Shown piece after piece: positions 3-63,425 of a DNA stretch of 64,000 bases (position 1 is the stretch's first letter; the number at the start of each line of letters is the position of its first letter). Below the pieces are notes generated by a model. That model was not told the DNA's origin, ran no database searches, and saw only the letters and a list, made by a program, of their open reading frames with translations. The stretch spans positions 8,517-72,516 of IMG/VR virus record IMGVR_UViG_3300030329_003698. One strand, 5' to 3'. Position numbers and translations under genes: made by a program. The stretch is from a virus.

Positions 3-1895
3 TCTCATAGCGACTGTATGCACCTTTACACGACATACTTTCGCAGCAATCGAACCGATAGTAACGACGCAGTTGGATGTATGGGTCTAGGGAGTAAGTC
101 TCCTTTCGCCTACAGTGATAGTTTTACTGTCGAGTCTTTCTTTAACGGTGAGCATCGTACTTATACCGCTTATAAGAACGAAGACGACGAACCCGTCTTT
201 GCCCTTCTCAACACTCAGATTACCTCTGAACCTAACGGCTTGAGGGTTAGCTTCCCTGTTAAGTGCGAAGGTTACGATAACGATATTCAGGAGTTTAAGA
301 ACGAAGCCGAAGACCTCTATAAGTGGTTTAAGGTTGCTCCTAAGATTACTGGTCAGTCTATTGAGATTGTGCCGGAAAGTTATTTTATCAAAGGTGATGG
401 TTGGGCTGTTCGTAAAATCGACAGGCATGCCGATTACTATGCTGTTGCCGTTATGGGACAGGTCGCCTATCCTATTGAACGAGATAACTTTGACGATGAC
501 AATGAAACTCGTCAAATCCTAAACACTAATATTACTATTCAGTTTGATATTGGTGAACTTAGTGTTACTCCGTCTCGTGAGTCTCTCAGCTACAATAAGC
601 ACACTAAGGAATCTATCGTTAGGAAATGTGTTGAGATTAGAGAGAAAGCTCAACGTGTAGCTGAAGAATCTATCTCAGAGGCAAAGACCCTCTGGGATGC
701 TAGAGTTGCCCATGTTAACATTACCAGAAGTAGTGGCTTGCTTGGTGGACTCTCTAAGACAATTGATGCCACTGGTATTAAGTGGAACAATACTGACCTG
801 TTTGATAACAACTTTGGTCAGATTTATATTGGAGATATTGAAGGCCTCATTGTTAAAGTTTATTACAGGGATGGATGGAAGAAAGCAGTACAAACAGACG
901 ATGTTAGTAAACTGCTGGTAGACCCTAACGCCGCCATCTTTGTTGATGACCTTAAGCGCGGTGGAATCAGTCGCATTAAGCATCATGTTAAGGAGAATAC
1001 CTCCAGCGGCAGGTATGAACGCAATGATAGCAAGTTTAAGGTTTATAGGGTAACTGGTACTGAGGAGGCTATTGCTAAGTTCCGCGAACTGGTGGGGTGT
1101 GATGAAAGTCACATCAACAAGACCTCCGACCTTGATAAGCCTATTAGCAACAGGTCTTACGATACAGAAAAACGCACCAGCGTTGCCAGATGGAACGGTA
1201 GGACTTATAGTTGGAAGAAAGGTCAGAACTGGAGTGATGTTGATATTGACCTTAACGACGGTGGTTATTTCGTAAGGATTGACCGCTATGAACTTACTCA
1301 AACGCACGGAATGTATCCTAACCTTGAAACTCTTAGTGATGTTGTAGACCACCTTAACGCCCTTGGTTACGACATTGATAAAGATAAGATTTATGGTATC
1401 AAGAATGTCGTCTGGAATAGAGCTAAGTTCCAGAAGTTGGTTCACTCGGAAGGTAAATGGGTTGACATTACCCAGCTTGCCCAAAAGGTGGCTAAAAATA
1501 TTAGTGAAGAAGATAAGCAACTTATCGAAGACAGAATGTCTGTCAGGGATATGTTTGGCAATCTTGGGATAGACGTTAAAGAGATTAGGAAAGTTGCTCG
1601 TAAGACCGCTACTGAAAACAATGGTCTTAGACAGATTGTTGCTCTCAAAGAATACTATGATAAGCAACAGGAAGAGAAGAAGGCAGAAGATATTTATCAT
1701 CTGTGCAGGATTTACAAAACCCTGCCTGACAAGGTTGAGAATAAGCACGCACCCCATCTTGAAGCGTGCATTGATAAGTACCCTCTGATTAAAGTTGTGT
1801 CCAAAAGATATTACGGAATTGAAGAGGATATGGTTGAAGAACTCGCTCGTTATGTTGACCTGATTGAGAGAGAGAACAATGCCCAGCTACGTTAA
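3..1895 (+). CDS. rIIA: RIIA-like GHKL ATPase, 5' end cut off by the window
   Basis: The frame is open to the window edge with no stop before the ATG at 18, so the true start lies upstream and the ATG at 18 is internal. The first visible residues carry the lid-region motif GLGSKSPFAYSD, typical of T4 rIIA-type proteins, which belong to the GHKL (gyrase, Hsp90, histidine kinase, MutL) ATPase superfamily. The N-box and first glycine box are missing because they lie outside the window. In T4, rIIA with rIIB acts at the membrane in lysis inhibition and exclusion of other phages. The rIIB homologue follows at 2660, which supports the call. Codon use is strongly biased: TTA, CTA and TCA are rare, leaving a long spurious open frame on the other strand. 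Confidence 0.85.
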   Translation, partial: SHSDCMHLYTTYFRSNRTDSNDAVGCMGLGSKSPFAYSDSFTVESFFNGEHRTYTAYKNEDDEPVFALLNTQITSEPNGLRVSFPVKCEGYDNDIQEFKNEAEDLYKWFKVAPKITGQSIEIVPESYFIKGDGWAVRKIDRHADYYAVAVMGQVAYPIERDNFDDDNETRQILNTNITIQFDIGELSVTPSRESLSYNKHTKESIVRKCVEIREKAQRVAEESISEAKTLWDARVAHVNITRSSGLLGGLSKTIDATGIKWNNTDLFDNNFGQIYIGDIEGLIVKVYYRDGWKKAVQTDDVSKLLVDPNAAIFVDDLKRGGISRIKHHVKENTSSGRYERNDSKFKVYRVTGTEEAIAKFRELVGCDESHINKTSDLDKPISNRSYDTEKRTSVARWNGRTYSWKKGQNWSDVDIDLNDGGYFVRIDRYELTQTHGMYPNLETLSDVVDHLNALGYDIDKDKIYGIKNVVWNRAKFQKLVHSEGKWVDITQLAQKVAKNISEEDKQLIEDRMSVRDMFGNLGIDVKEIRKVARKTATENNGLRQIVALKEYYDKQQEEKKAEDIYHLCRIYKTLPDKVENKHAPHLEACIDKYPLIKVVSKRYYGIEEDMVEELARYVDLIERENNAQLR

Positions 1896-2659: not shown

Positions 2660-3514
2660 ATGAATTACATTGTCAGCGGAAACGGAACGATTACTATTGT
2701 TATTGATAACCAGAGTTTCACGGTTGGTTACGACCATCCTAACTACATGGCTATCAAAGAATGTATCGTTAATGACGATGCAGAAAACATTGTTGAACTG
2801 ATTGACATTCCCTCTGCTATCGAAGATTATGCAGAAGGTAAGGTCACTGTTACTGATGGTGTTCTTCGCTATGATGGTGAGGAAATCCACAACAGTCTTA
2901 CTGAGCGCATTATGGGAATGATGCGTAACGGTTTTCCCTTCGAGCCTATGGTTAAGTTCTTGGCTAACGTCTTGGAAAACCATAGTAATCGTGCTGTTCA
3001 AGAACTGTATACGTTCCTTGAGCATAAGAATCTTCCTATCACAGAAGATGGTTGCTTCCTTGCTTATAAGGCTGTGACTAGTGATTATAAGGATAAGTGG
3101 TCTCGCACCATTGATAACAGTGTTGGCGAGACTGTTAGTATGCAGCGTCGTAAGGTTAATGATGACTGTAGCGTTGGCTGTTCTGATGGTCTTCACTGTG
3201 GAGCATTGGAATATGTCGAAGGTTATCGGGCCGAACACGCTGGTGACCGTGTAGTCATCGTTAAGGTTAACCCCAAGGATGTTGTGTCGGTCCCAACTGA
3301 CTGCGAATGTCAGAAGGTCCGAACCTGTGAGTATCAGGTTATTGCTGATTACGAAGGTCCGCTTAAAAGCCTTCTTCACAAGGGAGAAGACGGTGAGGCT
3401 TGGACCGAAGATGAGTTTAACGAGTTTATGTCTAACCTTATGGGTTTGTCCGACGTGGAAGAATCCGACGAGCAGGATTACCTTGAAAGTCCTAACGAGG
3501 GCATGGACAATTAA
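2660..3514 (+). CDS. rIIB: RIIB-like protein
   Basis: 284 residues, close to the T4 rIIB length. The central region contains the family signature around NRAVQELYTFLEH, LPITEDGCFLAYKAV and a later C..GLHCGALEYV segment. I recognise these from rIIB-like proteins of many tailed phages. The acidic C-terminus has no obvious domain. An AAAGG Shine-Dalgarno lies about 8 bases before the ATG. The gene has its own leader after the terminator at 2583-2640, so it may be regulated separately from rIIA. It stops within the start of the next gene. Confidence 0.85.
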   Translation: MNYIVSGNGTITIVIDNQSFTVGYDHPNYMAIKECIVNDDAENIVELIDIPSAIEDYAEGKVTVTDGVLRYDGEEIHNSLTERIMGMMRNGFPFEPMVKFLANVLENHSNRAVQELYTFLEHKNLPITEDGCFLAYKAVTSDYKDKWSRTIDNSVGETVSMQRRKVNDDCSVGCSDGLHCGALEYVEGYRAEHAGDRVVIVKVNPKDVVSVPTDCECQKVRTCEYQVIADYEGPLKSLLHKGEDGEAWTEDEFNEFMSNLMGLSDVEESDEQDYLESPNEGMDN

Positions 3515-4694: not shown

Positions 4695-4760
4695 ATTTTG
4701 TCTTTTGAAAACTTTCCTGATGTGGTTCGGATAGTCTGGAACTTTTGAGGGCCAGTGAAA

Positions 4761-5294
4761 ATGGAAACTAAGATAACCCTAAACCCAGCAGAGCAACTAC
4801 TCTGCAAGATGATCGCTTCCGAGAGACACAAAACTGCTCGAAGCGCTGGAGTTAGGAATAGCAGAGTGGGCGATCAGTCCGACGAAGAGACTGACCTTGA
4901 AGGCGTTGCTGCGGAGTTAGCATTTGCCAAGTTTTACGGCCAATATCCAACCGGTGTTTTTGATATTGGGGCTAGATCATCAAAAAAAGGAGAGGACAAG
5001 ACTGGCGATATAACAATCAATGGTTTTATTGTTGATGTTAAAGCCACGACATATTCCAGCGGAAGACTCATAGCCGCTGAATGGAAGGACCATTCTCATA
5101 TTGACTTCTACGCTCTTGTCGTAGGGGTGTTTCCAAAATATGAGATTAAAGGTGTTATGTCTACAGAAGAACTTATCCAGCCAGACAGGCTTAACTATCT
5201 TCCCCGTGGCAGAAACAAAGTTTATCAAGCAACACAACCCGAACTAACATTTCCTGAAGAGTTGGAGAATAAAAATGTTACACATTCAATTTAA
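4761..5294 (+). CDS. PD-(D/E)XK-type nuclease-like protein
   Basis: 177 residues from the ATG at 4761, which has GAGG at good spacing; a GTG six bases earlier is possible. An early glutamate-rich helix (DLEGVAAELAFAKF) is followed by GDITINGFIVDVKAT. This is the E ... D ... D/E-x-K layout of restriction-endonuclease-fold nucleases, with the lysine in DVKAT. Phages use such enzymes for host DNA degradation, repair or packaging. Length and motif order fit; the specific role is unknown. It overlaps the start of the DUF1501 gene by 20 bases, so the two are co-translated. Confidence 0.55.
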   Translation: METKITLNPAEQLLCKMIASERHKTARSAGVRNSRVGDQSDEETDLEGVAAELAFAKFYGQYPTGVFDIGARSSKKGEDKTGDITINGFIVDVKATTYSSGRLIAAEWKDHSHIDFYALVVGVFPKYEIKGVMSTEELIQPDRLNYLPRGRNKVYQATQPELTFPEELENKNVTHSI

Positions 5295-6516
5295 CAGACG
5301 TGACTTCATGAAGGTTGGCGCTGTTGGCGCTGGTCTATCTGCTATGGGCTTGTCAGATGCTCACGCAGACTCAATGCCCATTAACGACAAGTCTGTTATC
5401 TGGGTTTGGTTGGGTGGTGGCGCGACACAAGTTGAAACCTTCGATCCGAAGCCTATGGCTCCTGAAGGCATCAAGGCTGCAAATGGATCTATAATGACTA
5501 GGGGAGATTTTCTCATTGGTGCAGACTTTATGAGATTGTCAACCATAGCGGACAAGATCTCTGTTGTGCGATCATTCAGCCACAAAAATGCCAGCCACAG
5601 AACTGGTACACATTGGGTTATGACCGGACATAATTCAACTGACAATACTCCCCAATCCATGCAGCAAGAGCCGTCCTATGGTTCGATTCTGTCTTCCCTG
5701 TACGGGGCGAATCACCCCCTCTCAGGGATGCCAAGCTACGTCAGGGTCAACGGGATCAGCTTCGACGGTCCAGCGTGGCTGGGGAGCCAATACAAGCCCT
5801 ACGAAGCCAAAGGAGAGGGCGTTGACAACCTCAAATCTCGGATCGAAGGAGACCGGTTTGTCGAACGTAAAGATTTAGTAGGTAGCTTCGACAAGCTCAA
5901 GCTAACTAACGATCTTGAAACTTGGGGAGACCTAAGAAAACAATCGTATAGCCTCATCTTAGGAAAGGCTAGCGAAGCGTTTGATCTAAAAAATGAGCCA
6001 GAACGAACTCGAAAAAGGTATGGAGATGTTGGGATAGCAAAACAACTACTTCTTGCTCGTAGACTCGTTGAGAACGGTACTAAGTTTGTAACACTGCATT
6101 ACGGTGGCTGGGATATGCACAGCAACATCTCAAAGTCCTTACACAACAGAGTCCCTCCGCTTGACCACGCTCTGACTACGTTGATAAACGATCTCGAAGC
6201 AAAGGGGATGACCAAGGATGTACTTCTTGTTGTTACCGGCGAGTTTGGTCGTACTTATCGTATTAATAAAAATGGTGGACGAGATCATTGGCCACAACTT
6301 AGCCCGCTTATGTTTAGCGGTGGCGACTTTGATATGGGTAGAGCAATTGGTGAATCCACATCCAAGGCTGAAAGACCTAAGACAGACGCTTTTGGTCCAA
6401 TGGATGTAACAGCCACACTATTCAGTCACTTTGGTATTGATCCACAAATTCAAAAGACCGACTTTGCCGGTAGGCCCAGATACTTCGTTGACGAAAAAGC
6501 AAGGGTTATTCTATGA
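5275..6516 (+). CDS. DUF1501 family protein with Tat signal
   Basis: 413 residues. The N-terminus NRRDFMKVGAVGAGLSAMGL and the following AHA form a twin-arginine export signal with cleavage near residue 31. Family hallmarks of DUF1501 (alkaline-phosphatase/sulfatase-like fold) are visible: WVWLGGGATQVETFDPKP, SHRTGTHWVMTGH, LHYGGWDMHSN, VVTGEFGRT and GRDHWPQLSP. It would be exported folded to the periplasm of the host. The biochemical activity of the family is not settled. DUF1501 genes are extremely numerous in Planctomycetota, which suggests host origin. It overlaps the nuclease-like gene upstream and the Fe-S carrier gene downstream, so it is embedded in the phage operon and is not a stray insertion. 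Confidence 0.9.
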   Translation: MLHIQFNRRDFMKVGAVGAGLSAMGLSDAHADSMPINDKSVIWVWLGGGATQVETFDPKPMAPEGIKAANGSIMTRGDFLIGADFMRLSTIADKISVVRSFSHKNASHRTGTHWVMTGHNSTDNTPQSMQQEPSYGSILSSLYGANHPLSGMPSYVRVNGISFDGPAWLGSQYKPYEAKGEGVDNLKSRIEGDRFVERKDLVGSFDKLKLTNDLETWGDLRKQSYSLILGKASEAFDLKNEPERTRKRYGDVGIAKQLLLARRLVENGTKFVTLHYGGWDMHSNISKSLHNRVPPLDHALTTLINDLEAKGMTKDVLLVVTGEFGRTYRINKNGGRDHWPQLSPLMFSGGDFDMGRAIGESTSKAERPKTDAFGPMDVTATLFSHFGIDPQIQKTDFAGRPRYFVDEKARVIL

Positions 6517-6839
6517 TAACATTTACAGACGCAGCAGTAGACAAGCTAAAAGAGTTCAGCCAAGACCATCCAACCGCATTGCTCAGAGTCGGTGTGATGG
6601 GTGGCGGCTGTAGCGGCTTTGAATACAAGATGGGGTTTATTGAACAAGAAGAAGTTGACGACAAAACATTCAGCAAGCACAAGCAGGGTGAATTGGATTT
6701 TGTGGTTGACAAAAAAAGCGAGCCGTTTATTCAAGGCTGCACTGTTGATTGGATTGAGGATCTTATGCAAAGGGGATTTAAATTTGATAACCCAAATTCT
6801 CAAAGATCCTGCGGGTGTGGAAAGAGCTTTAGTGTATGA
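6513..6839 (+). CDS. iscA: IscA/HesB-type iron-sulfur cluster carrier
   Basis: 108 residues, the normal length for A-type Fe-S carriers. The three conserved cysteines are present: C33 in GGGCSGF and C100/C102 in SCGCGKSF. A-type carriers hand Fe-S clusters to apo-proteins in the cytoplasm. Homologues are common in marine phages. Possible clients here are the four-cysteine RecB/Cas4-like nuclease at 38859 or host enzymes; that link is inference. The ATG overlaps the DUF1501 stop. Confidence 0.9.
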   Translation: MITFTDAAVDKLKEFSQDHPTALLRVGVMGGGCSGFEYKMGFIEQEEVDDKTFSKHKQGELDFVVDKKSEPFIQGCTVDWIEDLMQRGFKFDNPNSQRSCGCGKSFSV

Positions 6840-7717
6840 ACCCACTGAAGTGGTATGTCTCTAAATTTCCAGAGGCGTTATACCCTTGTTCTAGCGAAAA
6901 TCAACAAGAGTACGCTAAAAAAGTTATACTCGGCAAACAAAAGATGTCTGAGTCTACCGCTGTAATATGCGGTATAGCTAGAGATATATCACAAAACATC
7001 ATAGCTACTATATCTAGGATCGAATGTCTGGGAGAAATGTTTGATGATTATAGAGTAGTTATATATGAAAACGATTCCGTTGATGGGACCGACATAATTT
7101 TCAAAGAATGGGAAGAGTCTAACTACAAAATAAAAATCATCAGTGAAAAACTTGGCGATAAAAAACATGAATCCAGCACCAACACTGACAGGCTTATAGC
7201 TTTAGCCAATTATAGAAACAAGTATTTAACAGAGATATTTAGTAGAACTAGACAACCAGATTATATTATAGTTACAGACTTAGACCTTAAAGGCGGGTGG
7301 AGTTACGAAGGGATATGCAACAGCTTTGGCTATGATCATTGGAGTGTAATGGGTTCCAATGGTTTATTATATGGTTTATCTGAATCTTCTAAGGATGAAG
7401 ACGGAAATCCTATAATGACCAGAGTTTATTATGATTCTTTAGCTTTCAGAAGAACAGGACATCCACATCCACATATAAGCTCTGAAATTAATGCGTTGTA
7501 TTACAACAGAGGCGAAGAACCCCTCAAAGTCGAATCGTGCTTTGGAGGGGTGGCTTTATATAAACACGAAGCATTCAAACACGGGGCGAGATACTCTGGC
7601 CCAGACTGCGACCACGTTGAACTACACAGGAACATGATAGACTTTGGGATACACGACATATATTTAAACCCCAGCCAAATAGTATTGTACTCTGACGTTA
7701 AATACACACAGGTTTAA
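6836..7717 (+). CDS. Glycosyltransferase, GT-A fold (GT69/Cap59-like)
   Basis: 293 residues. CGIARDISQNIIATISRIE, YENDSVDGTDIIF and the acidic TDLDLKGGW motif give a GT-A arrangement like that of the capsule mannosyltransferase Cap59 family, where the D-x-D binds metal and the nucleotide sugar. The C-terminal half has HPHPHISSEINALYY and several cysteines. It starts inside the Fe-S carrier stop and opens the first glycan cluster. Acceptor and donor are unknown. Confidence 0.75.
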   Translation: MNPLKWYVSKFPEALYPCSSENQQEYAKKVILGKQKMSESTAVICGIARDISQNIIATISRIECLGEMFDDYRVVIYENDSVDGTDIIFKEWEESNYKIKIISEKLGDKKHESSTNTDRLIALANYRNKYLTEIFSRTRQPDYIIVTDLDLKGGWSYEGICNSFGYDHWSVMGSNGLLYGLSESSKDEDGNPIMTRVYYDSLAFRRTGHPHPHISSEINALYYNRGEEPLKVESCFGGVALYKHEAFKHGARYSGPDCDHVELHRNMIDFGIHDIYLNPSQIVLYSDVKYTQV

Positions 7718-7720
7718 ATT

Positions 7721-9247
7721 ATGGATTATCTCAAAAACAAAAGATGGGATAACATAGCCCAAACAACAAATGATGTAGAACTAAAAGAGACTATGGTTGC
7801 TGGTCATGGCGAATCAGAAGTCTTGCCACATACAAAATTAGACCTCTTGGTTTCAAAAACAAAGAAATACAAGATTTTAGATTTCGGTTGTGGAACAGGG
7901 AGAAACTTAAAATACTTGAGAGACATCTCGACAGAGCTTCACGCCTACGATCTCCCGTCTATGATTGAGAGATGTAAAGAACTAACCCCAGAGAAGCCAG
8001 ATCTATTAACCGGTGATTGGTCTGTAATACAAAACAATCGCTATGATATGATTGTTGCTATTTTTACATTTCAATTTATAGAAGATGCCGATTATATAAG
8101 AAAATTTCTTGAAGATATGTCTAAGATCACGTCAATCTTGTACGTGATAACTAGATGTTATATCGACTCACCTCAACGTGAAAATCTTGCAAAAATAATA
8201 CAGGAAGACCCTAACTTTGAAATAGTCTTAGAGGGGTGTAGCATAGAAACTTTTGCTAAAGAAGTCTATCCAAGTGACGCTCACGCTGAGTTTATATGCA
8301 GGTCCAAAGCCGACCAAAGACACGTTAACCAGATAATAGAACTTAATCTGAAGTCTCCATTCTATGAATTTGATCCAGACTATCCATTTATATATAAATC
8401 TTATGCCGAAACAGTAAAAGATATAAAACGCTGGTCTGATTCGATTCCAGAAATTAGCGCCGTGGTTGGGATTCCTAGAAGCGGATCTTTTATTGCGGCT
8501 ATAATTTCTGAGTATAGGAATATTCCGCTATTCACTATGGACGGCATACTTAATGATGGCATATGTTGGAGGCCCAGCATATCAAGACCTATAAACAGAC
8601 CAAACGGCCCAGTATTTGTTGTAGACGATACATGCTGGAGCGGATCTTCTCTCAAGAGAACCAAGGCATATTTAAAAAATAAGGGTGATTATATTTATGG
8701 ATCTCTATACATAAAAGATGATCGACAAAACGACGTTGATTATTTTTATGGTATTCTTCCAACTGTATATCACACGTTTGAATGGAGCCTCCTAAGAGAC
8801 CCCCAGTGCGGCTCTTATATATGTGATTTAGATGGAGTGTTTTGTCCAGACCACGACAAATCCACGATTAAAGATGGAAGCAAAGAATATATAGAACACT
8901 TAAAAACAGTCAACCCTTCTCGTTATACTCCCCAATTCCCAGTCATGAAGATTTGCACAGCTAGACTTGAAAAATACAGAAGCATTACTGAGGACTGGCT
9001 GTCGGTACATAAGATTAGATACAAAGAGCTAATCATGAGTCCATACAACTCCGAAGAGGAGAGGCTTGAAAAAGAGGGATTTGGAAAATGGAAGGCTGAA
9101 CACTATCTTGGTACACCAGAGGCATCTCTGTTTGTAGAAAGCGAACACTCACAAGCTATTGATATCTACAATATGACACAGAGGCCGGTGTTCTGCATGG
9201 ACACAATGACTCTTTACGGAGGATTAACTATAGATGTCTCTGATTGA
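7721..9247 (+). CDS. Three-domain fusion: SAM methyltransferase, phosphoribosyltransferase, HAD
   Basis: 508 residues in one frame. Residues ~50-190: class I methyltransferase with ILDFGCGTGRNL. Residues ~245-355: phosphoribosyltransferase with VVGIPRSGSF and the PRPP-loop VFVVDDTCWSGSS. Residues ~368-508: HAD-like domain with CDLDGVFCPD (motif I), ICTAR (motif II) and a later SLFVESE segment. PRT-HAD pairs are known in phage glycan or nucleotide loci; the methyltransferase addition is uncommon. Each domain looks intact. It probably makes or modifies an activated sugar or nucleotide for the surrounding glycosyltransferases, but the substrate cannot be read from sequence. Confidence 0.8.
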   Translation: MDYLKNKRWDNIAQTTNDVELKETMVAGHGESEVLPHTKLDLLVSKTKKYKILDFGCGTGRNLKYLRDISTELHAYDLPSMIERCKELTPEKPDLLTGDWSVIQNNRYDMIVAIFTFQFIEDADYIRKFLEDMSKITSILYVITRCYIDSPQRENLAKIIQEDPNFEIVLEGCSIETFAKEVYPSDAHAEFICRSKADQRHVNQIIELNLKSPFYEFDPDYPFIYKSYAETVKDIKRWSDSIPEISAVVGIPRSGSFIAAIISEYRNIPLFTMDGILNDGICWRPSISRPINRPNGPVFVVDDTCWSGSSLKRTKAYLKNKGDYIYGSLYIKDDRQNDVDYFYGILPTVYHTFEWSLLRDPQCGSYICDLDGVFCPDHDKSTIKDGSKEYIEHLKTVNPSRYTPQFPVMKICTARLEKYRSITEDWLSVHKIRYKELIMSPYNSEEERLEKEGFGKWKAEHYLGTPEASLFVESEHSQAIDIYNMTQRPVFCMDTMTLYGGLTIDVSD

Positions 9248-10196
9248 TAAACAAGACATGATTAACTGTAAGTCTTGGATGAGTCTGGCTGACTGTAATT
9301 ATGAGCTAGACTTCAAAGAAGGTGAAGTTCCAGAATCCTGCGTGGTGTATTGCAACATCGAGCATGTAAAAGGATTCTTTGAGGCTTGCAAACAAACCGA
9401 CAATAAGTATGTATTGATAAGTGGTTTCAGCGACTTTGGTTTGGCTCACCAAGAAGAACATCCCGTGTCTGCGGATATGCTTAAATGGATACCGTTTATA
9501 GAATCTGACATAGCTAAAACTTTGAAATATGACTCACTAAAGATAGCACCAAGATGCGATCTAGACAATTGTGATATCAACGACAGATATTCAGTAAAAT
9601 GCTATAGCTTTACGCATTCTACATTTAACGAAATACCAAAGAACATCATCAAATGGTTTGTTGTTAATCCTATGATTATGAAGAACAACATCCAAGGGAT
9701 ACCAATAGGCGTTGGAAAACACTCTACAGACGCGATAACATCAACAGAGATTCCCCCACATAAGACGGGGTGGCTATATATTAACTGGCAAAACTACACA
9801 ACAGAGAGAGTACACCTAAAACAGTACTTTGAAAACAACAATTGGGACTGGACTACAGTTCACGCCTCCCCAGACAGAAGTCTTGAACAATATTATGCAG
9901 ACTTGGCAAGACATAGGTTTGTAGCATGCCCACCGGGAAACGGAATAGATTGCTATAGAGTGCTGGAGGCTATATATTTAGGTTGTATACCAATAATGGA
10001 AACAAGCCCAACATCCAAATACCTCAATGGCCTTCCAATTATAACCATAGATCATTGGGGACAGATCAACTCTTTAGACACCCTAAAGAGAATGCATGAC
10101 CATATTTACGCGACAGAAAACAGCTACACCCTAGAAAAATCAAGACTATCTTTTTGGGAATCCAAAGTAAGGGAGACGTTTAATGAAGTTTTCTAA
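9234..10196 (+). CDS. Exostosin-like (GT47-type) glycosyltransferase
   Basis: 320 residues. The C-terminal motif RHRFVACPPGNGIDCYRVLEA followed by YLGCIPIM is characteristic of exostosin-family GT-B enzymes (Gly-rich nucleotide-sugar site plus acidic helix). The N-terminal half reads as the acceptor domain. It overlaps the upstream fusion gene by 14 bases. Donor and linkage are unknown. Confidence 0.75.
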   Translation: MSLIDKQDMINCKSWMSLADCNYELDFKEGEVPESCVVYCNIEHVKGFFEACKQTDNKYVLISGFSDFGLAHQEEHPVSADMLKWIPFIESDIAKTLKYDSLKIAPRCDLDNCDINDRYSVKCYSFTHSTFNEIPKNIIKWFVVNPMIMKNNIQGIPIGVGKHSTDAITSTEIPPHKTGWLYINWQNYTTERVHLKQYFENNNWDWTTVHASPDRSLEQYYADLARHRFVACPPGNGIDCYRVLEAIYLGCIPIMETSPTSKYLNGLPIITIDHWGQINSLDTLKRMHDHIYATENSYTLEKSRLSFWESKVRETFNEVF

Positions 10197-10428
10197 CACA
10201 TCAACTATGATAGCGTATAATTACTTTATGTCTTCCAACATAGGATCAACCCACAACATAAACCAATTAAAAAAGCACATGAGGTTGTTAAAAGCAGAAT
10301 CAAAAAATACACACCCATTCATATCATCTTGTACACACCACATGATAAACAACATAGATTGGGATTTCATAGAAAGCGAACTAATTAATGCCCAACAAAC
10401 CAATAAACTTAATAACCCCAATCAATAG
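10183..10428 (+). CDS. Small protein, unknown function
   Basis: 81 residues, not recognised, rich in Asn, His and Ser. It overlaps the upstream glycosyltransferase by 14 bases and the next one by 41, which is long for a real gene here. The ATG at 10183 has only a weak ribosome site (GGGAGA about 11 bases upstream). It could be a small cluster protein or a chance frame. Confidence 0.45.
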   Translation: MKFSNTSTMIAYNYFMSSNIGSTHNINQLKKHMRLLKAESKNTHPFISSCTHHMINNIDWDFIESELINAQQTNKLNNPNQ

Positions 10429-11467
10429 TCTGGGGTATGGCGTAGCCGGTCTAAATATTCTCCTAGAATTAAACAAGATAGCGAATGTGGGTCTCTGGCC
10501 TCTAGGAGAACCCGACGTTGACCGCAGGCACTTTCCTGTGCTAAAAGAGTGTATACAAAACACAGAGATGCCTGATTTTGACGCGCCTTGTCTAAGAATC
10601 TGGCATCAACACGACATGAGTCAGTTTGTTGGTTCTGGTCTCAAGGTAGGTTTTCCCATCTTTGAGTTAGATACTTTTACCGACGCAGAAAAACACCACC
10701 TATCACATCTCGACAAGATCTTTGTCTGCTCAGAATGGGCAAAAGAGGTTGTCCTTCAAAATATCCCCTCTTTTAACAAGTCAGATATCTCCGTCATCCC
10801 TCTTGGGGTTGACAGGGGTGTGTTTGAATATAGTTATAACCAAAGAGAAGAAACGATATTTTTTAATTGTGGAAAGTGGGAGGTTAGAAAAGGTCACGAC
10901 TTTCTGATAGAAGCTTTTCTTGAGGCTTTCACACCGGAAGATAACGTAGAGTTATGGATGATGTGTGAAAACCCCTTCTACAGCGAAGAAGAAAACATGG
11001 CTTGGAGCAACAAGTACAAACAGTCCGCTTTGGGAGACAAGATTAGAATAATTCCTAGACAAACCAGCCAAAAAGATGTGTATAATATAATGCGGCAGGC
11101 TGATTGCGGAGTGTTCCCCAGCAGAGCAGAAGGTTGGAACTTGGAGTTGCTTGAGTTGATGTCTTGTGGTAAACATGTAATTGCAACTGACTATTCTGGT
11201 CACACCCAATTTTGCAGCAAAGAAAACTGTCTGTTGATAAACATAGAAGAAAAGGAAGAGGCTGTGGATGGCAAATGGTTTTTTGGACAGGGTAAATGGG
11301 CGAAGCTGACTGAGAAACAGCTACGACAGACCGCCTACTACATGTCCGCAATCCATAGAGCAAAGAGCAGAGGAAGTTTAGATCCAAACATCAATTGTAT
11401 AGAAACAGCCGAGAAATTTTCTTGGCAAAACACAGCAAGGGAGATTCTCAATGCCATCTCCGAATAG
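10388..11467 (+). CDS. Glycosyltransferase, GT-B fold (GT4-like)
   Basis: 359 residues. NSLGYGVAGLNIL marks the N-terminal Rossmann domain. The C-terminal domain has FNCGKWEVRKGHDFLIEAF, the donor-site segment PSRAEGWNLELLELMSCG and VIATDYSGH, the classic E-x7-E region of family GT4. It transfers a sugar from a nucleotide donor in the cytoplasm. It is part of the 6.8-12.6 kb cluster, and its end overlaps the next gene by 17 bases. Confidence 0.85.
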   Translation: MPNKPINLITPINSLGYGVAGLNILLELNKIANVGLWPLGEPDVDRRHFPVLKECIQNTEMPDFDAPCLRIWHQHDMSQFVGSGLKVGFPIFELDTFTDAEKHHLSHLDKIFVCSEWAKEVVLQNIPSFNKSDISVIPLGVDRGVFEYSYNQREETIFFNCGKWEVRKGHDFLIEAFLEAFTPEDNVELWMMCENPFYSEEENMAWSNKYKQSALGDKIRIIPRQTSQKDVYNIMRQADCGVFPSRAEGWNLELLELMSCGKHVIATDYSGHTQFCSKENCLLINIEEKEEAVDGKWFFGQGKWAKLTEKQLRQTAYYMSAIHRAKSRGSLDPNINCIETAEKFSWQNTAREILNAISE

Positions 11468-17216: not shown

Positions 17217-17316
17217 ATGCAACTTCAGGATTTAGGGACTGTATTTTTAGGATTTGTAATTTCAATTATATTTTAGGCGCTACGACGAAGGTCAAGAGCG
17301 ATTGAGGAACACAACC

Positions 17317-19281
17317 ATGAAAAAGCTTCTATTCTTAGCGGCTCTATTTCTTGGAGTCGCACTCAATACAGCTACAGCGAATGCTCAACGTCTCACCATA
17401 GACCAGTCGCTAGAAGCTGTTTGCAGAGTGAACACCAGCAGTGGTCGCGGAAGCGGCACAGTTTTTGCGGAAGATGAAGAGAATTACTACATTATGACTA
17501 ATGGTCATGTAGTTGGGAGATCATCAAGAGGAACAGTTGAGTTTTTTCAAGATGGTTATAAGTCTTCCAACATACCATTCAAGACAGAATACACTGCTTA
17601 CAAAGATGGCACGGCATTAGACTTAGCAGTTCTATCTGTCAAAAAACAGTTTTTTGGAAGATACCCTCCCAGAGTAATTCCGCTAGCTCCTCGTGGGACA
17701 AAAATTAAAGCTAACGATTTAGTTCAAGCTGGAGGTTGTCCATCAGCACAATGGGCCTGCGCTTGGAAAGGGAGAGTTCTAAGAAACGCTGGAGCAGTCA
17801 TAAGCTTTAATGCCGCCCCAATAGGTGGTCAATCAGGAAGCGGAGTACTTATCGTTATTAAAGACGAGAAAGGCGAAGAACAAACTCGTATCGGCATCCT
17901 CTTAGCTTGGAGAGTAGGAGACGGAGCCTACACCGATGACGGCCCAACAGATTATGGTGCTGGTCTATCTTTAAAACAAATCTATGCAATTTTAGATGGA
18001 AACGGCCAAGGACATCCAATTGAAACATCTTACAAAATTATTTCTGATGTCCCTAAACAGGCCAAGCCAGAAAGACTTAGTAAGATTTGCCCAAACTGTG
18101 GAAAAAAGATTGAAGACCATGTTATCATCCCCAAGGACGGCGGTCTTATGAGAACGGAAAAGGGAGAGTTTATGTTCTGCCCTGAGCTTAAGTTTGCAGA
18201 TGGAGGCATTGCAGACACGGCTCGATATTACAAGGGGATAAAAGTTGGAGAGCTATACGATGGAAACGGTCTGTTTCCTTGGTGTCCTCTCAACCCGTGT
18301 CCTCCTCCCAATCGACCTCAACCACCACAACCCGGACCTCAGCCGCCAAATGGCGGGGGAAATGGGGGCGGCGGCGGATTTAACCCTTGGCCGGGACGAC
18401 CAGATCCCGACAATGGTGGACCCACAGATCCTCCCAGCAACGATTTTGAAAAAGAGAAACAACAGTATCTTGACAAAATTGCCGAACTTCAAGAAAAGCT
18501 TACTAATTTAGAAGCTCTATCTGAAAGCCTAAAGGCCGAATTGTCTGGCACTACTGGAAACTTACAAAAATCTCAGGATGAAATTAGTGGTCTCAGAGAT
18601 CTTCTTGGTAGAGTTGAAGGTGAAAAAACTAATTTACAGATTAGAATTACAGAATTAATTAATACACTTCAACAAAAAGAGGATCTCTTAGATAATTCAG
18701 GACATTACCTAGACGAAGCTACCGGGGGAAATGGAAACACCGTAGAGAACGTTAGTTTTACCCTCGGTGGAGCTAGCTTGGGAATGCTTGCATTAAAGTA
18801 TGGTGTCCCCTTTCTACTTAGGAGGAGAAGAAAAAAGAAAAAAGAGGATGACGAAAACGACGATGATGGGTATGATATTGATAGGAAACCACCGTCCGAC
18901 GACGGTTGCGGAGACCACGTACAAAAGCATGTTCATGAACATCAACACTACGGTATTCCAGATTGTGGACCCGTGAGACCATCAGAACATCCAGAAGAGT
19001 ACGTTATGGATAGACGAGATCTTCCCAGAGGAAGAAGCGTAGACGAGATGCCTAACGATTTTCTCCCTTACGGATTAAGGACAACACCAGTATCGACCCC
19101 CGGACTAGCACCACAATTGCCACATGTACCATTTGGTTCAAGGAAGTCTATTGGCTCAGAGCAGATTATGACTACTCTGGGAGAATTGGTAAACGAGTAC
19201 GGAGACGATCACACTATGACCGCTTTTCAGATTGACACTTTGTTACGACAAAGACTTAAGAAGAAGTATAATATCGAGTAA
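17317..19281 (+). CDS. Secreted, membrane-anchored trypsin-like serine protease
   Basis: 654 residues. I chose the ATG at 17317, which has GAGG nine bases upstream and begins the signal peptide (KKLLFLAALFLGVALNTA, then ANA). The protease domain has a full triad: H64 in NGHVV, D102 in LDLAVL and S173 in GGQSGSG. A zinc-ribbon-like CPNCGKK follows, then a Pro/Gly-rich linker, a coiled coil (~residues 370-450), a transmembrane segment near GASLGMLALKYGVPFLL with a basic stop (RRRRKKKK), and a His-rich HVHEHQH stretch. It may act in the host periplasm or be a virion-linked protease. The layout resembles HtrA-type enzymes only in the catalytic part. Confidence 0.8.
   Translation: MKKLLFLAALFLGVALNTATANAQRLTIDQSLEAVCRVNTSSGRGSGTVFAEDEENYYIMTNGHVVGRSSRGTVEFFQDGYKSSNIPFKTEYTAYKDGTALDLAVLSVKKQFFGRYPPRVIPLAPRGTKIKANDLVQAGGCPSAQWACAWKGRVLRNAGAVISFNAAPIGGQSGSGVLIVIKDEKGEEQTRIGILLAWRVGDGAYTDDGPTDYGAGLSLKQIYAILDGNGQGHPIETSYKIISDVPKQAKPERLSKICPNCGKKIEDHVIIPKDGGLMRTEKGEFMFCPELKFADGGIADTARYYKGIKVGELYDGNGLFPWCPLNPCPPPNRPQPPQPGPQPPNGGGNGGGGGFNPWPGRPDPDNGGPTDPPSNDFEKEKQQYLDKIAELQEKLTNLEALSESLKAELSGTTGNLQKSQDEISGLRDLLGRVEGEKTNLQIRITELINTLQQKEDLLDNSGHYLDEATGGNGNTVENVSFTLGGASLGMLALKYGVPFLLRRRRKKKKEDDENDDDGYDIDRKPPSDDGCGDHVQKHVHEHQHYGIPDCGPVRPSEHPEEYVMDRRDLPRGRSVDEMPNDFLPYGLRTTPVSTPGLAPQLPHVPFGSRKSIGSEQIMTTLGELVNEYGDDHTMTAFQIDTLLRQRLKKKYNIE
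19266..19274 (+). promoter_or_regulatory. GTATAATAT promoter element, copy 3
   Basis: GTATAATATCGAG at the end of the protease gene carries TATAAT at 19267-19272. The stop codon TAA follows at 19279. An AAAGGAGA ribosome site and the ATG of the next gene come about 10-20 bases downstream. Position relative to a gene end matches the other copies, but it is also ordinary coding sequence (Tyr-Asn-Ile), so confidence is low. Confidence 0.3.
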
Positions 19282-20122: not shown

Positions 20123-21070
20123 ATGAAGAGGACTATTTGTATCGCTGCGTTTTTTGTAGCTTTGTTTGCTACCGCTGCAAACGCACAGGACAACGCACTC
20201 TATCAACATCTGCAAGACGTTTCTGTTACCGTAAAGGCGTCAGGTGGGGAAGGCTCTGGCATTATCGTAACACGAGAAGTCGAAGTCTCCCCAAACGTCA
20301 AGCAGAAGGTCAATTTTGTTTGGACTGCGGCTCATGTTGTAGACGGCCTTAGATCAGCTAGGGTTGTCATTAAAAATGGAAAACCTACAACAGTCGTAGA
20401 GTTTAAGGACGCTCAAATTGTTAAAGAATTAGTAGAGGATGGTCGCAGGGTTGGCGAATTCAAGATGGAAGCCAAAGTAATCAAATACTCCGACGCTGAA
20501 AACGGAGAAGACTTGGCTCTCTTGATGGTTAGGAAGAAGGGGTTTATTGATAAGACCACTACTTTCTACAAAGATTCTGGCAAGCCAGTCGCTATTGGTA
20601 CTGAGCTATATCATGTTGGCTCTCTACTAGGCCAAGTTGGAAGTAACTCGATGACGCGAGGCATTTGCTCTCAAGTTGGTAGAGTTCTTGATCTTGGCAC
20701 TGGGGATGGAGTAGTCTTCGACCAAACAACAGTAACAGCATTTCCCGGTTCTAGTGGTGGTGGAGTATTCCTTAGCGAACGTAGCAAGGAAAAAGCCGGT
20801 CAATATGTGGGAATGCTTGTTCGTGGTGCTGGGGAAACTTTCAATCTGATTGTCCCCGTAAGGCGAATGAGGTCTTATGCAAAGAAAGAGGGGGTTTTGT
20901 GGGCCATTGACACAAATATCAAGGTTCCCACCATTCAAGATATCTCATCTTTGTCAGCAGAAGGCCCGAAGGCGCAGCAAACGCCCGGAACCAAAGCCAC
21001 TAAAGACGCTGTTAAATTTCCCGTTCTTCCACTAAGAAGTGGTGAAAAAAATGAGATCAAGAGGAAGTAA
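20123..21070 (+). CDS. Secreted trypsin-like serine protease
   Basis: 315 residues. The signal peptide is RTICIAAFFVALFATAANA with probable cleavage after ANA. Triad: H71 in TAAHVVD, D130 in GEDLALL and S211 in PGSSGGG. The fold is the trypsin/HtrA protease type without a visible PDZ domain; the C-terminal ~60 residues are Pro/Lys-rich. It has a strong AAGGAAGG ribosome site and a leader shared with 12836. Having two exported proteases close together suggests envelope remodelling or processing of host surface proteins. Confidence 0.8.
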   Translation: MKRTICIAAFFVALFATAANAQDNALYQHLQDVSVTVKASGGEGSGIIVTREVEVSPNVKQKVNFVWTAAHVVDGLRSARVVIKNGKPTTVVEFKDAQIVKELVEDGRRVGEFKMEAKVIKYSDAENGEDLALLMVRKKGFIDKTTTFYKDSGKPVAIGTELYHVGSLLGQVGSNSMTRGICSQVGRVLDLGTGDGVVFDQTTVTAFPGSSGGGVFLSERSKEKAGQYVGMLVRGAGETFNLIVPVRRMRSYAKKEGVLWAIDTNIKVPTIQDISSLSAEGPKAQQTPGTKATKDAVKFPVLPLRSGEKNEIKRK

Positions 21071-38868: not shown

Positions 38869-39881
38869 CTTATATACGAAGCTCATCATATAATAGTTAT
38901 GATTACTGTCAACAACAGTATTATATAAATTATGTTTTGGGGTTTCCGTCAACATCAGGCAAAAAAGCCCAACAGGGAACCATCGTCCACAAGGTGATGG
39001 AGTGTCTGTCCGCTTGCAAGAAAAGACTACAAAATCTCCCCGAGTCTAGTTTGATGAGCGTGACAGATGACGCGCTTGGAAGAATCACATTCACCCACAG
39101 CAAACTATACTCAGATGAATTTGTTGATAAATTAGTGGATAAAAGTTTTGAACATTATACTTCTAATTGCGTCCATGATTATACAGATAAAGAAGAGAGG
39201 GAGTGTCGCAAATGGACGTGGATGGGTCTACATTACAATGACGGCCAATTTGATCCTAGAAACAGAACCATTGTAGACACAGAACCACACTTTGACATCG
39301 AGATAGATGAACCTTGGGCAGAGTATGACTACACCCTTGATGATGGGACAAGACTAAAAGGTAAATTAGCCATCAAGGGGACTATAGATCTAGTTACCGA
39401 GGTGGAAAACGGGGTCATAGAAGTTGTAGATTGGAAGACTGGAAGAAGAATTAATTGGGCCACAGGTGAAGAAAAAGACTATAATAAACTAGAGACTGAC
39501 CCACAACTGCTTCTCTACTATTATGCTATATCAAAGCTATACCCTGATTACGATCAGGCTATAATGACCATTTTCTATATCAAAGACGGAGGACCATTCT
39601 CACTGTGCTATGACGATGGGGCTAAAGAGTTATTTCTTAATATGCTAAGAAAGAGATTCAACCAAATAAAAAATAACAAATCCCCAATGTTATTGTCTCA
39701 GAACCAATCGCACTGGAAGTGTACTAAACTTTGCGATTACTATAAGAACAACTGGGAAGGTACGGATACTAATATTTGTAAATATGTACAACAACATATT
39801 AAGCAAAACGGTATCGAAAGGACAACGCAAGATTGTACCAAACCAGACTTTAACATAGGGTATTATGATGCTCCCGGTTAA
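38859..39881 (+). CDS. RecB/Cas4-like nuclease
   Basis: 340 residues. N-terminal [20 protein letters not shown] is the usual RecB/Cas4 start with a Cys. The active site is [12 protein letters not shown] and [10 protein letters not shown] (D-x-K). A C-terminal Cys cluster (CTKLC ... NICKY) could, with the N-terminal Cys, bind a 4Fe-4S cluster as in AddB/Cas4; the phage IscA could serve it. Probable 5'-3' exonuclease in recombination. It overlaps the next gene by 17 bases. Confidence 0.8.
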
Positions 39882-40812
39882 ATATTTTAACAATAAAGAG
39901 ATCGCGGAACTACTCTCAGTTCCAGAGTGTGTAGAGCTTGTAGAAGACCTTTTTCTAAATTTTGACGACACCCAGATGCCGCCCAAAGTATACATGAATG
40001 TTCCCAACGGGGACTTCAGGGCTATGCCAGCGGTTGTGGGCAAAACGGCGGGAATTAAGTGGGCTGGACTCAACATCAAGGAAGAGGGCAAGATCAACAT
40101 CTTTGCTATGGTGATGATCAATGATATTGAAACTGGAGACCTGCTAGCAGTTTTAGACGCAGAAACACTTACGGCTATTAGAACGGCGGCTGTGACAGGT
40201 GTTGCTACTAGACACATGTCTCCGTCTTATGCCAAAACAGCGGCATTCATAGGTTGTGGACATCAGACGCTCAGACAAATTCGGGCGGTAGCGCATGTCA
40301 GAGATATAGAAACTATAAAGCTTTTTGACCTGAGTGAAGATAGAGCAAACTCGGTAAAAGAAGCCCTTCAGTATAAAGACAACTATTATCAGTCGCAGGG
40401 AATTGCGGTAGAGGTTTGTGAAAGCCTAGAACAATGTTTGTGGGATTCTGATATTGTTACGACTTTAACACCATCACGAACACCTTTTATAAAATATAAA
40501 GATTTAAAACCTATAGTTCATATTAATGCCGTTGGCGCTGACGCAGAGGGAAAAAGAGAATTGCACTCCTGCGTCCTTGAAAATGTTGATATGGTCTCCT
40601 ACGATGAGTGGGTCCAGTGTTCCCATTCTGGAGAGATACAATACGCCAAGAAAAGCAAAATCTCACAGATATGGTCGCCATTATCAGAAATAGTGCAAGG
40701 AAGAGTTGAAAAAAGTGGCGCGTTGAGGACTCTGTTTGACGCCACAGGGCTTGCTATAGAAGACGTTGCCACAGCCCGATATATCTACGAAAAGTTTAAC
40801 AGGAAAAAATAA
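39865..40812 (+). CDS. Ornithine cyclodeaminase/mu-crystallin family protein
   Basis: 315 residues. NDIETGDLLAVLDAETLTAIRTAAVTGVATRH and FIGCGHQTLRQIRAV are hallmark segments of the family; the NAD-binding Rossmann core follows. Members convert ornithine to proline or reduce cyclic ketimines such as piperideine-carboxylate. It lies just upstream of the split polymerase N-half and close to the lysine/arginine cassette. Substrate is unresolved. Confidence 0.85.
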   Translation: MMLPVKYFNNKEIAELLSVPECVELVEDLFLNFDDTQMPPKVYMNVPNGDFRAMPAVVGKTAGIKWAGLNIKEEGKINIFAMVMINDIETGDLLAVLDAETLTAIRTAAVTGVATRHMSPSYAKTAAFIGCGHQTLRQIRAVAHVRDIETIKLFDLSEDRANSVKEALQYKDNYYQSQGIAVEVCESLEQCLWDSDIVTTLTPSRTPFIKYKDLKPIVHINAVGADAEGKRELHSCVLENVDMVSYDEWVQCSHSGEIQYAKKSKISQIWSPLSEIVQGRVEKSGALRTLFDATGLAIEDVATARYIYEKFNRKK

Positions 40813-40850
40813 CCTAATCGGTTAGGATCTTGATCGTATAGGAAGCTAAA

Positions 40851-42767
40851 ATGCCTATCTGGACACCGTTGCATCTACACACTCACTACAGTTTGCTCGA
40901 CGGACTTTCAAAACCCGCTCAGGTTGCTGCGCGTTGCGAAGAACTTGGGTATGACTCATGCGCCTTAACAGACCATGGGACAATTTCAGGGTCCATCTCT
41001 TTTGTTAGAGCTATGAAAGAGAAAAACATAAAGCCTATTTTGGGTTGTGAGTTCTATCTATGTGATCAAGACCCTTGTATTAAAGATAAAACAAACAGAC
41101 GGCTTAGTCATCTAGTAGTGTTGGCTAAGAATTTTGAAGGATGGAAAAAATTAATAGAGGCCACGTCAGCTAGCAACGACGAAGAGGTCTTTTACCACAA
41201 GCCTCGTCTAGACCTGAACACCTTGGCAGAATACTGTGATGGCAACCTGATAAGTTTTTCGGGCCATCTTGGTAGTCAACTTGCAGATATCATCTTTTCA
41301 GATGCCAGATCTGCCTATGGAGCTAAAACATACGAAGAAGCAAAATCGTTCGTGGACCCGGACTGGGTTAGCAAAACTACCCAGCTTGCTGAGAAATACC
41401 GCGAGATATTTGGCAAGGATAATTTCTTCCTTGAGATACAACTTATTGACCAAGATATGGCTCCGGCACAGAGGATTACAGCAGAGGGGCTAAGATATGT
41501 AAGTAAGTTAACAGGAATACCCTGTGTAGCTACAGCAGACTCTCATTACCCATCCTCAGAGGATGCAGCCGATCAGCGCGTTCTACTTTGTTCGTCTCTC
41601 AGAACTACGCTAAAAAAAGTCAGCGAGAAGATGAACAACGACGAGGAGATAGGTCTTGGCGGATTCTTTCGCTCTAACAAATACCACATTCCCACACAAG
41701 AAGAAATAGCTGCTATAAATTCCGAGGCTGAGATAGCCAACACCAGAAGAATCAGTGATATGTGCGAGTCTTATGAAGTCTTGGGAAAACCAATGCTTCC
41801 TAAGTTCGACTGTCCTGATGGAATGGGTGAATATGAATATCTAACGCAACTGTGTAGACATGGTTGGGTGGACAGGCTAGCGTCTCTTGGAAAGGTTGAT
41901 GACCAGAACAAGAGCAACGAATATTCCGAAAGGATCAAGAAAGAGCTTTCTGTGATAAAAGAGGCAGACCTCTCTGGATACTTTCTTATCGTCCAAGATA
42001 TCGTTAACCATGTTAGGCAAGAAAACTGGTTGCCGGGGCCGGGAAGAGGGTCGGCGGCAGGTTGTCTTATTTCCTATCTGATTGGTATAACAGAAGTAGA
42101 CCCCATACAGTATAATTTAATTTTTGAGAGATTTTATAACGCTGGTCGGAACACAGAGGGTCATGTATCCTTGCCTGATATTGATATCGACGTTCCCACA
42201 ACAAAGCGGGAACAAGTAATAGAATATATGCGGGTAAAATACGGAAGAGAAAAAGTCGGCCAGATGGTAACTTTTGGGCGTATGCAGGGTAGAACTTCTA
42301 TCAAAGAGGTTCTTAGGGTTCACGATGCTTGTAGCTACGACGAGATGAATGAGATAACAAGGAACATCCCTTCCGAAGCTGAGATTTCTGACCAGCTACA
42401 AGAAATGGACGATCCCTCAATTATTAGATGGGCATTAATGAACACGCCAGACCAATTAAAAGATTGGTGTAGACTTGAGGATGACGGCACAATTACTGGC
42501 GAACTAGGCAAGCTTTTTGAACAAGCTATCAGACTAGAAGGAACATACAAATCTCAGGGCAAGCATGCAGCAGGGGTTGTGATCGGCTCTGAGAAACTCA
42601 ACGAGGTGTGTCCGATGGTCAGAGAAAAAAGAGGACACGAGAAGATTGCGGGATTGGAAATGCAAGACTTAGAAGCAATGGGTCATGTAAAGTTTGATGT
42701 TCTGGGCATTAGTTTTTTGGACAAAATCATGGGAGTATCTAACCAACTAGACAGTGGAAAAATATAA
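40851..42767 (+). CDS. dnaE-N: DNA polymerase III alpha, N-terminal half (PHP and catalytic palm)
   Basis: 638 residues. PHP domain with LHLHTHYSLLDG and LTDHG. Palm with GPGRGSAAGCL, LPDIDIDV (aspartates near residues 443-447) and KFDVLG (D616), together the three catalytic carboxylates of C-family polymerases. The protein stops about 20 residues after D616 with a normal stop codon. The missing C-half is encoded at 49543-51216. No intein motifs are seen at the end. GGAAGC is a weak ribosome site; a short hairpin CCTAA/TTAGG (40813-40826) is in the leader. Confidence 0.93.
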   Translation: MPIWTPLHLHTHYSLLDGLSKPAQVAARCEELGYDSCALTDHGTISGSISFVRAMKEKNIKPILGCEFYLCDQDPCIKDKTNRRLSHLVVLAKNFEGWKKLIEATSASNDEEVFYHKPRLDLNTLAEYCDGNLISFSGHLGSQLADIIFSDARSAYGAKTYEEAKSFVDPDWVSKTTQLAEKYREIFGKDNFFLEIQLIDQDMAPAQRITAEGLRYVSKLTGIPCVATADSHYPSSEDAADQRVLLCSSLRTTLKKVSEKMNNDEEIGLGGFFRSNKYHIPTQEEIAAINSEAEIANTRRISDMCESYEVLGKPMLPKFDCPDGMGEYEYLTQLCRHGWVDRLASLGKVDDQNKSNEYSERIKKELSVIKEADLSGYFLIVQDIVNHVRQENWLPGPGRGSAAGCLISYLIGITEVDPIQYNLIFERFYNAGRNTEGHVSLPDIDIDVPTTKREQVIEYMRVKYGREKVGQMVTFGRMQGRTSIKEVLRVHDACSYDEMNEITRNIPSEAEISDQLQEMDDPSIIRWALMNTPDQLKDWCRLEDDGTITGELGKLFEQAIRLEGTYKSQGKHAAGVVIGSEKLNEVCPMVREKRGHEKIAGLEMQDLEAMGHVKFDVLGISFLDKIMGVSNQLDSGKI

Positions 42768-42997
42768 TGGATGAAATCGCAGAGCTTTACAAGACAGTAT
42801 TAATAGATGGCTCATCTGTGGAATGTCAAAAACTTTCCCTTTGCTGTCTTAACGACTACTATCCTAGATTTAAAACTTTAAAATACCAAGTAGATTGTGA
42901 CGACTACAGACTAAAGTTTTCACAAATATATGATGGACCTCAACTTGGTCAAGCTATAAGTAAATATCTAGAGATAAAAAGAAAGCTGTATAAATGA
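42767..42997 (+). CDS. Small protein, unknown
   Basis: 76 residues directly after the dnaE-N stop (overlap one base). Helical with cysteines (CQKLSLCCLNDYYPRF). Possibly a linker or assembly factor for the polymerase, or the first gene of the inserted cassette. Not recognised. Confidence 0.6.
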   Translation: MDEIAELYKTVLIDGSSVECQKLSLCCLNDYYPRFKTLKYQVDCDDYRLKFSQIYDGPQLGQAISKYLEIKRKLYK

Positions 42998-43518
42998 GGC
43001 TAGACCACATAGCTTACAGAGTTGCCGACAGAAAAGAGGCTGCCAGCTTTCTAAACTCAATACTTGAGTATAAGGTTGGAACTGAGTTTGATATCGTTTT
43101 TGACGATGGGTCAAAGGCTGAATGCATTGCAATGATCCCTAGAGAAAAAATGGACAATGTCCCACCAATAGAAGCCGGGGGATTTCGACATCTTGCTCCA
43201 GAAATATTCATATCGGACGGGGACGAGAATTCAATTGTTGGTCAGTGGGTTGCCGAAAGAGGTGGTGTTGGAGGGGTTCACCATTTTGCATACCAAGTGT
43301 TTGGAATAGATCGGGTAGTAAAAGATTGGCGAGAAAAAGGCGTAGAATTTCTCACAGAAGACGTAATCGACTGTCCTGAAGACGACCTAAAACAAATCTT
43401 CACAAAACCCCTTGCACAATTGGGCGGGGTGATCATAGAACTCATAGAGCGGGGCCAAAAGGGTTTCTGCCAAAACTCAGTAAAAAATCTAATGGAATCT
43501 ACTAAGGAAGCAAAATGA
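42994..43518 (+). CDS. VOC-fold protein, HPPD/glyoxalase-like
   Basis: 174 residues. LDHIAYRVADRKEAASFLNSILEY begins a vicinal-oxygen-chelate module; HHFAYQVF supplies a second metal His; the end ELIERGQKGFC resembles 4-hydroxyphenylpyruvate dioxygenases. Only one pair of modules fits, so it is shorter than HPPD (~350). It may be an epimerase or dioxygenase on an amino-acid-derived keto acid. It begins the cassette. Confidence 0.75.
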   Translation: MRLDHIAYRVADRKEAASFLNSILEYKVGTEFDIVFDDGSKAECIAMIPREKMDNVPPIEAGGFRHLAPEIFISDGDENSIVGQWVAERGGVGGVHHFAYQVFGIDRVVKDWREKGVEFLTEDVIDCPEDDLKQIFTKPLAQLGGVIIELIERGQKGFCQNSVKNLMESTKEAK

Positions 43519-54610: not shown

Positions 54611-54623
54611 ATAGATAGAAGAA

Positions 54624-63424: not shown

Positions 63425-63425
63425 A

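Follow-up and report, generated by a model that had tools for sequence, protein, structure and literature searches.

A large group of uncultured bacterial viruses carries one to four copies of DUF1501, and the sequences of these proteins are those expected of products built for export to the cell surface during infection. The example examined here lies in a 64,000-nucleotide stretch of an IMG/VR virus record (the window). DUF1501 is without a known function, although one planctomycete genome searched has 72 copies and another 112. We know of no substrate or activity for any DUF1501 protein, and none was found for any member of the family. The phages hold up to four copies of this presumably exported protein, which are under strong purifying selection and must therefore help infection. 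They thus narrow the DUF1501 question to a compact, testable set. To our knowledge few planctomycete phages are known, and the repeated captures described below are a strong lead to such phages.

A DUF1501 protein with a Tat-type leader in a phage operon

The window gene is an intact open reading frame (ORF) of 413 amino acids with an ATG start. It overlaps the ORFs on both sides, by 20 bases upstream and by 4 bases downstream.

4755..5294, + strand: upstream overlapping gene, DUF5843 (PF19161, E 2.4e-12; phrog_18407), phage-like
5275..6516, + strand: DUF1501 protein, class A; Tat-type leader at residues 1-31, domain at 39-412
5296..5301, + strand: codons of the twin arginine R8-R9, invariant in 21/21 viral rows
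6513..6839, + strand: downstream overlapping gene, HesB/IscA-type Fe-S protein (PF01521)

The protein belongs to Pfam family PF07394 (E 3.6e-74; 250.7 bits against a cut-off of 27), and the match covers residues 39-412 and profile positions 2-386 of 390, which is the full length of the domain. The leader, MLHIQFNRRDFMKVGAVGAGLSAMGLSDAHA (followed by DS), has a twin arginine in the context NRRDFMK, then a hydrophobic stretch and an A-x-A motif; the Pfam TAT_signal model scores it at 20.3 bits, slightly below its cut-off of 22.7. A preliminary description of this DNA had claimed a full-length DUF1501 protein, a twin-arginine signal and overlaps with both neighbors, and these claims are borne out. 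A HesB/IscA-type gene (PF01521) lies close to viral DUF1501 in 19 loci.

The genome carrying the gene is clearly that of a tailed phage. The source record, a 77,182-base IMG/VR fragment with a single DUF1501 copy, encodes rIIA and rIIB homologues, a DnaB-like helicase, a primase, a split DNA polymerase and ribonucleotide reductase, and the window also holds ThyX, dUTPase and PhoH genes; this set makes the phage identity clear. When ten related records were searched for the terminase large subunit, six long ones matched (E 3e-20 to 1e-24). A match in the window's own record (1e-7) was discounted, as it falls on the PhoH gene. A chimeric contig is ruled out, because the same gene order is kept across independent contigs (L003, L005-L010, L012-L016).

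18..1895, + strand: rIIA homologue (phrog_612, E 8.4e-85)
2660..3514, + strand: rIIB homologue (phrog_609, E 3.7e-75)
20123..21070, + strand: secreted trypsin-like protease, of a family that adjoins DUF1501 in L029, L033, L039, L071 and L072
28893..28967, + strand: tRNA-Arg(TCT), which served for the host comparison

The window encodes two trypsin-like peptidases (PF13365), at 17302-19281 and 20123-21070, the second with a signal peptide. The B-family DNA polymerase is split between genes at 40851-42767 and 49525-51216, which cover phrog_405 positions 44-607 and 624-1067 and are separated by 6.7 kb. In relatives (e.g. L019, L032 and L056), the halves are parted mainly by one small RNase_T-type exonuclease gene (c40). 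Between and beside the halves in the window (39865-48892) lies a set of amino-acid metabolism genes, comprising ornithine cyclodeaminase, aldehyde dehydrogenase, a dimethylarginine dimethylaminohydrolase-like protein, class III aminotransferase, UDP-glucose dehydrogenase and saccharopine dehydrogenase. Together they resemble an arginine/ornithine/lysine pathway carried by the phage.

Viral DUF1501 genes form ordered arrays

A profile of the class found 177 encoding stretches in uncultured viral contigs, and a single-sequence query found 114. A search for further phage DUF1501 genes, which the preliminary description had proposed, thus returned many. That description had presented a single gene; the gene is real, but the account understated the case, since paralogs occur in sets in most of the loci read. 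We read 81 loci, the window included, and found 165 DUF1501 ORFs, 156 of them full-length reading frames. One copy is present in 32 loci, two in 25, three in 13 and four in 11, so that 49/81 hold two to four paralogs. The 81 loci include near-duplicate contigs, and many contigs end near the array, which makes copy numbers in clipped loci lower bounds; where at least 3 kb is available on either side, 29 of 43 loci have at least two copies. Four classes, A to D, occur in the order A-C-B-D with some members missing, and one exception was seen among the 81 loci.

Searched by tblastn against 50,697 phage records, the window protein (class A) had no relative at E 0.01, class D had none, and class C had one weak, partial match. 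The literature on DUF1501 in phages gave just one weak 61-residue match, in a table of a Pseudomonas phage. Neither the literature nor the phage records searched yielded a phage family built around DUF1501.

Repeated capture from planctomycete-type bacteria

Among the matches listed from a scan of 84,980 species genomes, the closest cellular relatives are in Planctomycetota and Verrucomicrobiota. The exception is L090, a phage contig in a SAR202 bin that is identical to viral locus L018. In targeted searches the nearest cellular protein was about 50% identical for class A, 65% for class B (G916), 77% for class C (L119) and 68% for class D (G917).

An IQ-TREE tree of 70 proteins, whose cellular rows for classes B and D come only from ten Planctomycetota and Verrucomicrobiota genomes, places classes A, B and C each as one group within different Planctomycetota clades. 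Class D is split between two positions, of which the lone one is weakly supported. A single viral origin was rejected when all viral rows were held in one clade (lnL difference 921, p-AU 9e-46). The nesting in different clades and the rejection of the one-clade tree together indicate at least four separate captures by these phages; a fifth is possible. Lying in phage genomes and nested among cellular homologues, the viral genes class as host-derived phage genes, or auxiliary metabolic genes. The planctomycete link of the family, raised in the preliminary description, is upheld by the nesting of all four viral classes in Planctomycetota clades and by the 72 and 112 copies in the two genomes searched.

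Host of the phages

The repeated captures argue that the ancestors of these phages infected Planctomycetota, and we consider a planctomycete host probable. The tRNA-Arg, a comparison also suggested in the preliminary description, leans the same way within the two groups compared, Planctomycetota and the SAR202 order: matches at E 1e-17 occur in roughly one in ten of the 294 Planctomycetota genomes as against 3 of 247 SAR202-order genomes, and the best match is 97% over 61 nt in Planctomycetota versus 87% in the SAR202 order.

The host clue thus finds backing in the donor clades and the tRNA-Arg, while other evidence tells against it. Phage GC is 42%, as against 54-61% in donor genomes, and the tetranucleotide profile of the phage is nearer SAR202. 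The phage primase was found in 0/392 Planctomycetota genomes, in a search that lacked a positive control and is uninformative; it was found in one SAR202-order genome, the bin holding the phage contigs. This bin (isolate OSU_TB57) contains two different phage contigs of the lineage, C7 and C13, both with DUF1501 arrays, and its phage contigs (L090 / G001, VFHP01000007.1) match IMG/VR contigs L018 and L061. Composition alone may explain this co-binning, as the GC of the bin, about 40%, is close to the phage value. SAR202 was rejected as an owner of DUF1501, because, of the seven matches in the bin, all but one partial match are on the two phage contigs.

Selection and conserved residues

Viral pairs that are 84-97% identical, and for which dS could be measured, gave dN/dS of 0.025-0.060, values that indicate strong purifying selection. 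These are the closer pairs; between the window gene and its nearest relatives dS was saturated. The export motif RR.[FL] is present in 21/21 viral rows, and the twin arginine also in 48/49 cellular rows. Residues kept in at least 95% of both viral and cellular rows are R8, R9, G48, G49, H108, W279, D280, H282, E323, R326, N331, G335, R336, D337 and H338. GRDH[WFY] is present in all 70 rows, viral and cellular.

Predicted fold and active site

An AlphaFold2 model built with 26 viral sequences (mean pLDDT 78, pTM 0.81; leader disordered) was compared with known structures; no solved DUF1501 structure was found by sequence. Foldseek and VIA-align matched the model to sulfatases, NPP phosphodiesterases, PafA phosphatase and the LtaS/YejM envelope enzymes. 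The VIA-align matches have Z of 17-19 over about 245 residues (rmsd 3.1-4.6), with Z up to 18.9 against NPP, choline sulfatase and PafA. DUF1501 is thus predicted to have the alkaline-phosphatase superfamily fold.

The catalytic features of that superfamily are another matter. The formylglycine (fGly) signature C/S-x-P-x-R is absent from the window protein, and among 21 viral rows C.P.R occurs in none and [CS].P.R in one. A type I sulfatase, which this signature would mark, was accordingly rejected. No [ST]DHG motif occurs in the 21 viral rows, and beta-1 ends in GG, not Asp. In NPP and sulfatase motifs the nucleophile lies nine residues ahead of the T of a TG motif. At this register (x8-TG) most DUF1501 rows, viral and cellular, have an invariant His (H108), a placement made by register, not by superposition. 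The usual superfamily nucleophile (Ser, Thr or fGly) is not recognizable in the sequence; D280, H282, H338 and E323 could belong to a two-metal ligand set. With the sulfatase signature absent and His at the nucleophile register, we therefore place DUF1501 in the fold superfamily without calling it a sulfatase or a phosphatase. Of the description "sulfatase-like", the fold stands and the catalytic signature does not.

Sugar genes near DUF1501 and a proposed role

Downstream of the window DUF1501 is a run of sugar and methyltransferase genes.

6836..11467, + strand: glycosyltransferase/methyltransferase block
6836-7717, + strand: CAP59-like gene, in this block
7721-9247, + strand: methyltransferase, in this block
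9234-10196, + strand: RXYLT1/exostosin-like gene, in this block
10388-11467, + strand: GT4 glycosyltransferase, in this block

Exostosin and GT4 genes cluster downstream of DUF1501 in most near relatives as well, and further glycosyltransferases and sugar-nucleotide genes lie elsewhere in the window. A second glycosyltransferase block, at 52663-63866, has methyltransferase, cytidylyltransferase-like and fused HAD-nucleotidyltransferase genes; its content suggests that the phage has a surface-sugar pathway. A cytidylyltransferase-like gene (GFTCSCFDLFHAGHV...) occurs as two near-copies, L082:2466-2909 and L083:2323-2736, at opposite ends of the 77-kb record.

Our reading, offered tentatively and as somewhat short of probable, is that DUF1501 remodels envelope glycan of infected cells, as an exported, host-derived phospho- or sulfo-ester enzyme. 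The protein would be made during infection, fold in the cytoplasm and leave it through the Tat system of the host. Its site of action would be the periplasm or the cell surface, where, together with the glycosyltransferases that the phage encodes, it would serve as a hydrolase or transferase of phospho- or sulfo-esters on envelope polysaccharide, with classes A-D each acting on different substrates. The altered surface or receptors might serve against superinfection or ease release. This reading draws on the leader, the conserved residues and low dN/dS, the fold shared with LtaS/YejM, the adjoining glycosyltransferases and the PAP2-type phosphatase beside class D. It also draws on an independent tie of DUF1501 to polysaccharide, its joint transfer with chitin synthase genes among other bacteria (PMC5122149). 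Counting against it are a larger subclade in which DUF1501 adjoins replication or ribonucleotide reductase genes, not glycosyltransferases; the lack of significant overall enrichment of exported proteins around viral DUF1501 (p 0.23); and the missing canonical catalytic features (fGly, [ST]DHG and the beta-1 Asp).

Some DUF1501 neighbors are exported or membrane proteins. At L018:12698-15440 and similar loci, small exported proteins without Pfam matches lie between or after the paralogs; they are Cys-rich (c38), Pro/His-rich (c23) or membrane-anchored with a C-P-x-C motif (c21), and are followed by a PAP2 phosphatase (c42). A PAP2-type phosphatase adjoins class D in several loci.

Two other roles appear unlikely, though both deserve weighing. 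DUF1501 might be an exported hydrolase (phosphatase, phosphodiesterase or sulfatase) that supplies phage production with phosphate or sulfate released from organic esters. Its fold superfamily is common to PafA and NPP, the PAP2 phosphatase lies near class D, and in two cyanophages the alkaline phosphatase gene phoA, proposed to scavenge phosphate, adjoins pstS (PMC3037559). Against such scavenging, neither pstS nor another phosphate-uptake gene was recognized among the annotated window genes, the usual phosphatase nucleophile is not recognizable, and four classes side by side suggest several substrates, not bulk supply.

We are equally doubtful of a non-catalytic or planctomycete-specific role, in which a secreted protein would bind the host envelope or an exported partner and serve as a decoy or dominant-negative. 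Altered canonical catalytic residues would fit, and so would gene context. Some planctomycete DUF1501 genes adjoin DUF1553-like genes. A cytochrome-motif gene upstream of cellular class-D relatives, which we take to be DUF1553-like, has no recognized counterpart beside the phage copies. The invariant charged and metal-type residues, however, are those expected of an enzyme. Neutral cargo, meaning host genes acquired by chance and functionless in the phage, might follow from several captures from DUF1501-rich genomes but is highly improbable and in practice refuted by purifying selection (dN/dS 0.02-0.06), with the conserved A-C-B-D order and 156/165 full-length ORFs also against it.

The envelope-glycan reading can be taken further, into a speculation that we rate as improbable: planctomycete phages would keep the serially captured A-C-B-D array of Tat-exported enzymes, with His at the nucleophile place, as a surface-remodeling guard against competing phages. 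If true, this would reveal the function of DUF1501, of which planctomycete genomes have come to carry about a hundred copies.

Comparison with known systems

The viral proteins share with Planctomycetota DUF1501 (PF07394) the full-length domain, the Tat-type leader and the invariant GWDxH, GEFGR and GRDHW motifs, and their nearest cellular relatives are 50-77% identical. They differ in lying in phage operons and in number, one to four as against 72 and 112 per genome; class A also stands on a long branch of its own, and most of its members have His in place of D57. Type I sulfatases, NPP phosphodiesterases and LtaS/YejM share the fold, but DUF1501 is only 8-15% identical to them and is without the fGly signature, SDHG or a recognizable nucleophile.

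Cyanophage PhoA is likewise a host-derived enzyme carried by a phage, but it is of another family and is encoded beside pstS (PMC3037559), whereas DUF1501 is without recognized phosphatase catalytic residues. One phage protein was already annotated as DUF1501, A0A6J5M742 of an uncultured Caudovirales phage (BFVD), which has 489 amino acids and is 13% identical to the window protein in a structural alignment; it is a lone annotation, around which no described family or array was found. The alkaline phosphatase PhoA of cyanophages belongs to the same fold superfamily as DUF1501. Phages with exported enzymes taken from a host are already known as a kind; what is new, as far as our searches show, is the ordered array of as many as four paralogs from a planctomycete family, acquired one after another.
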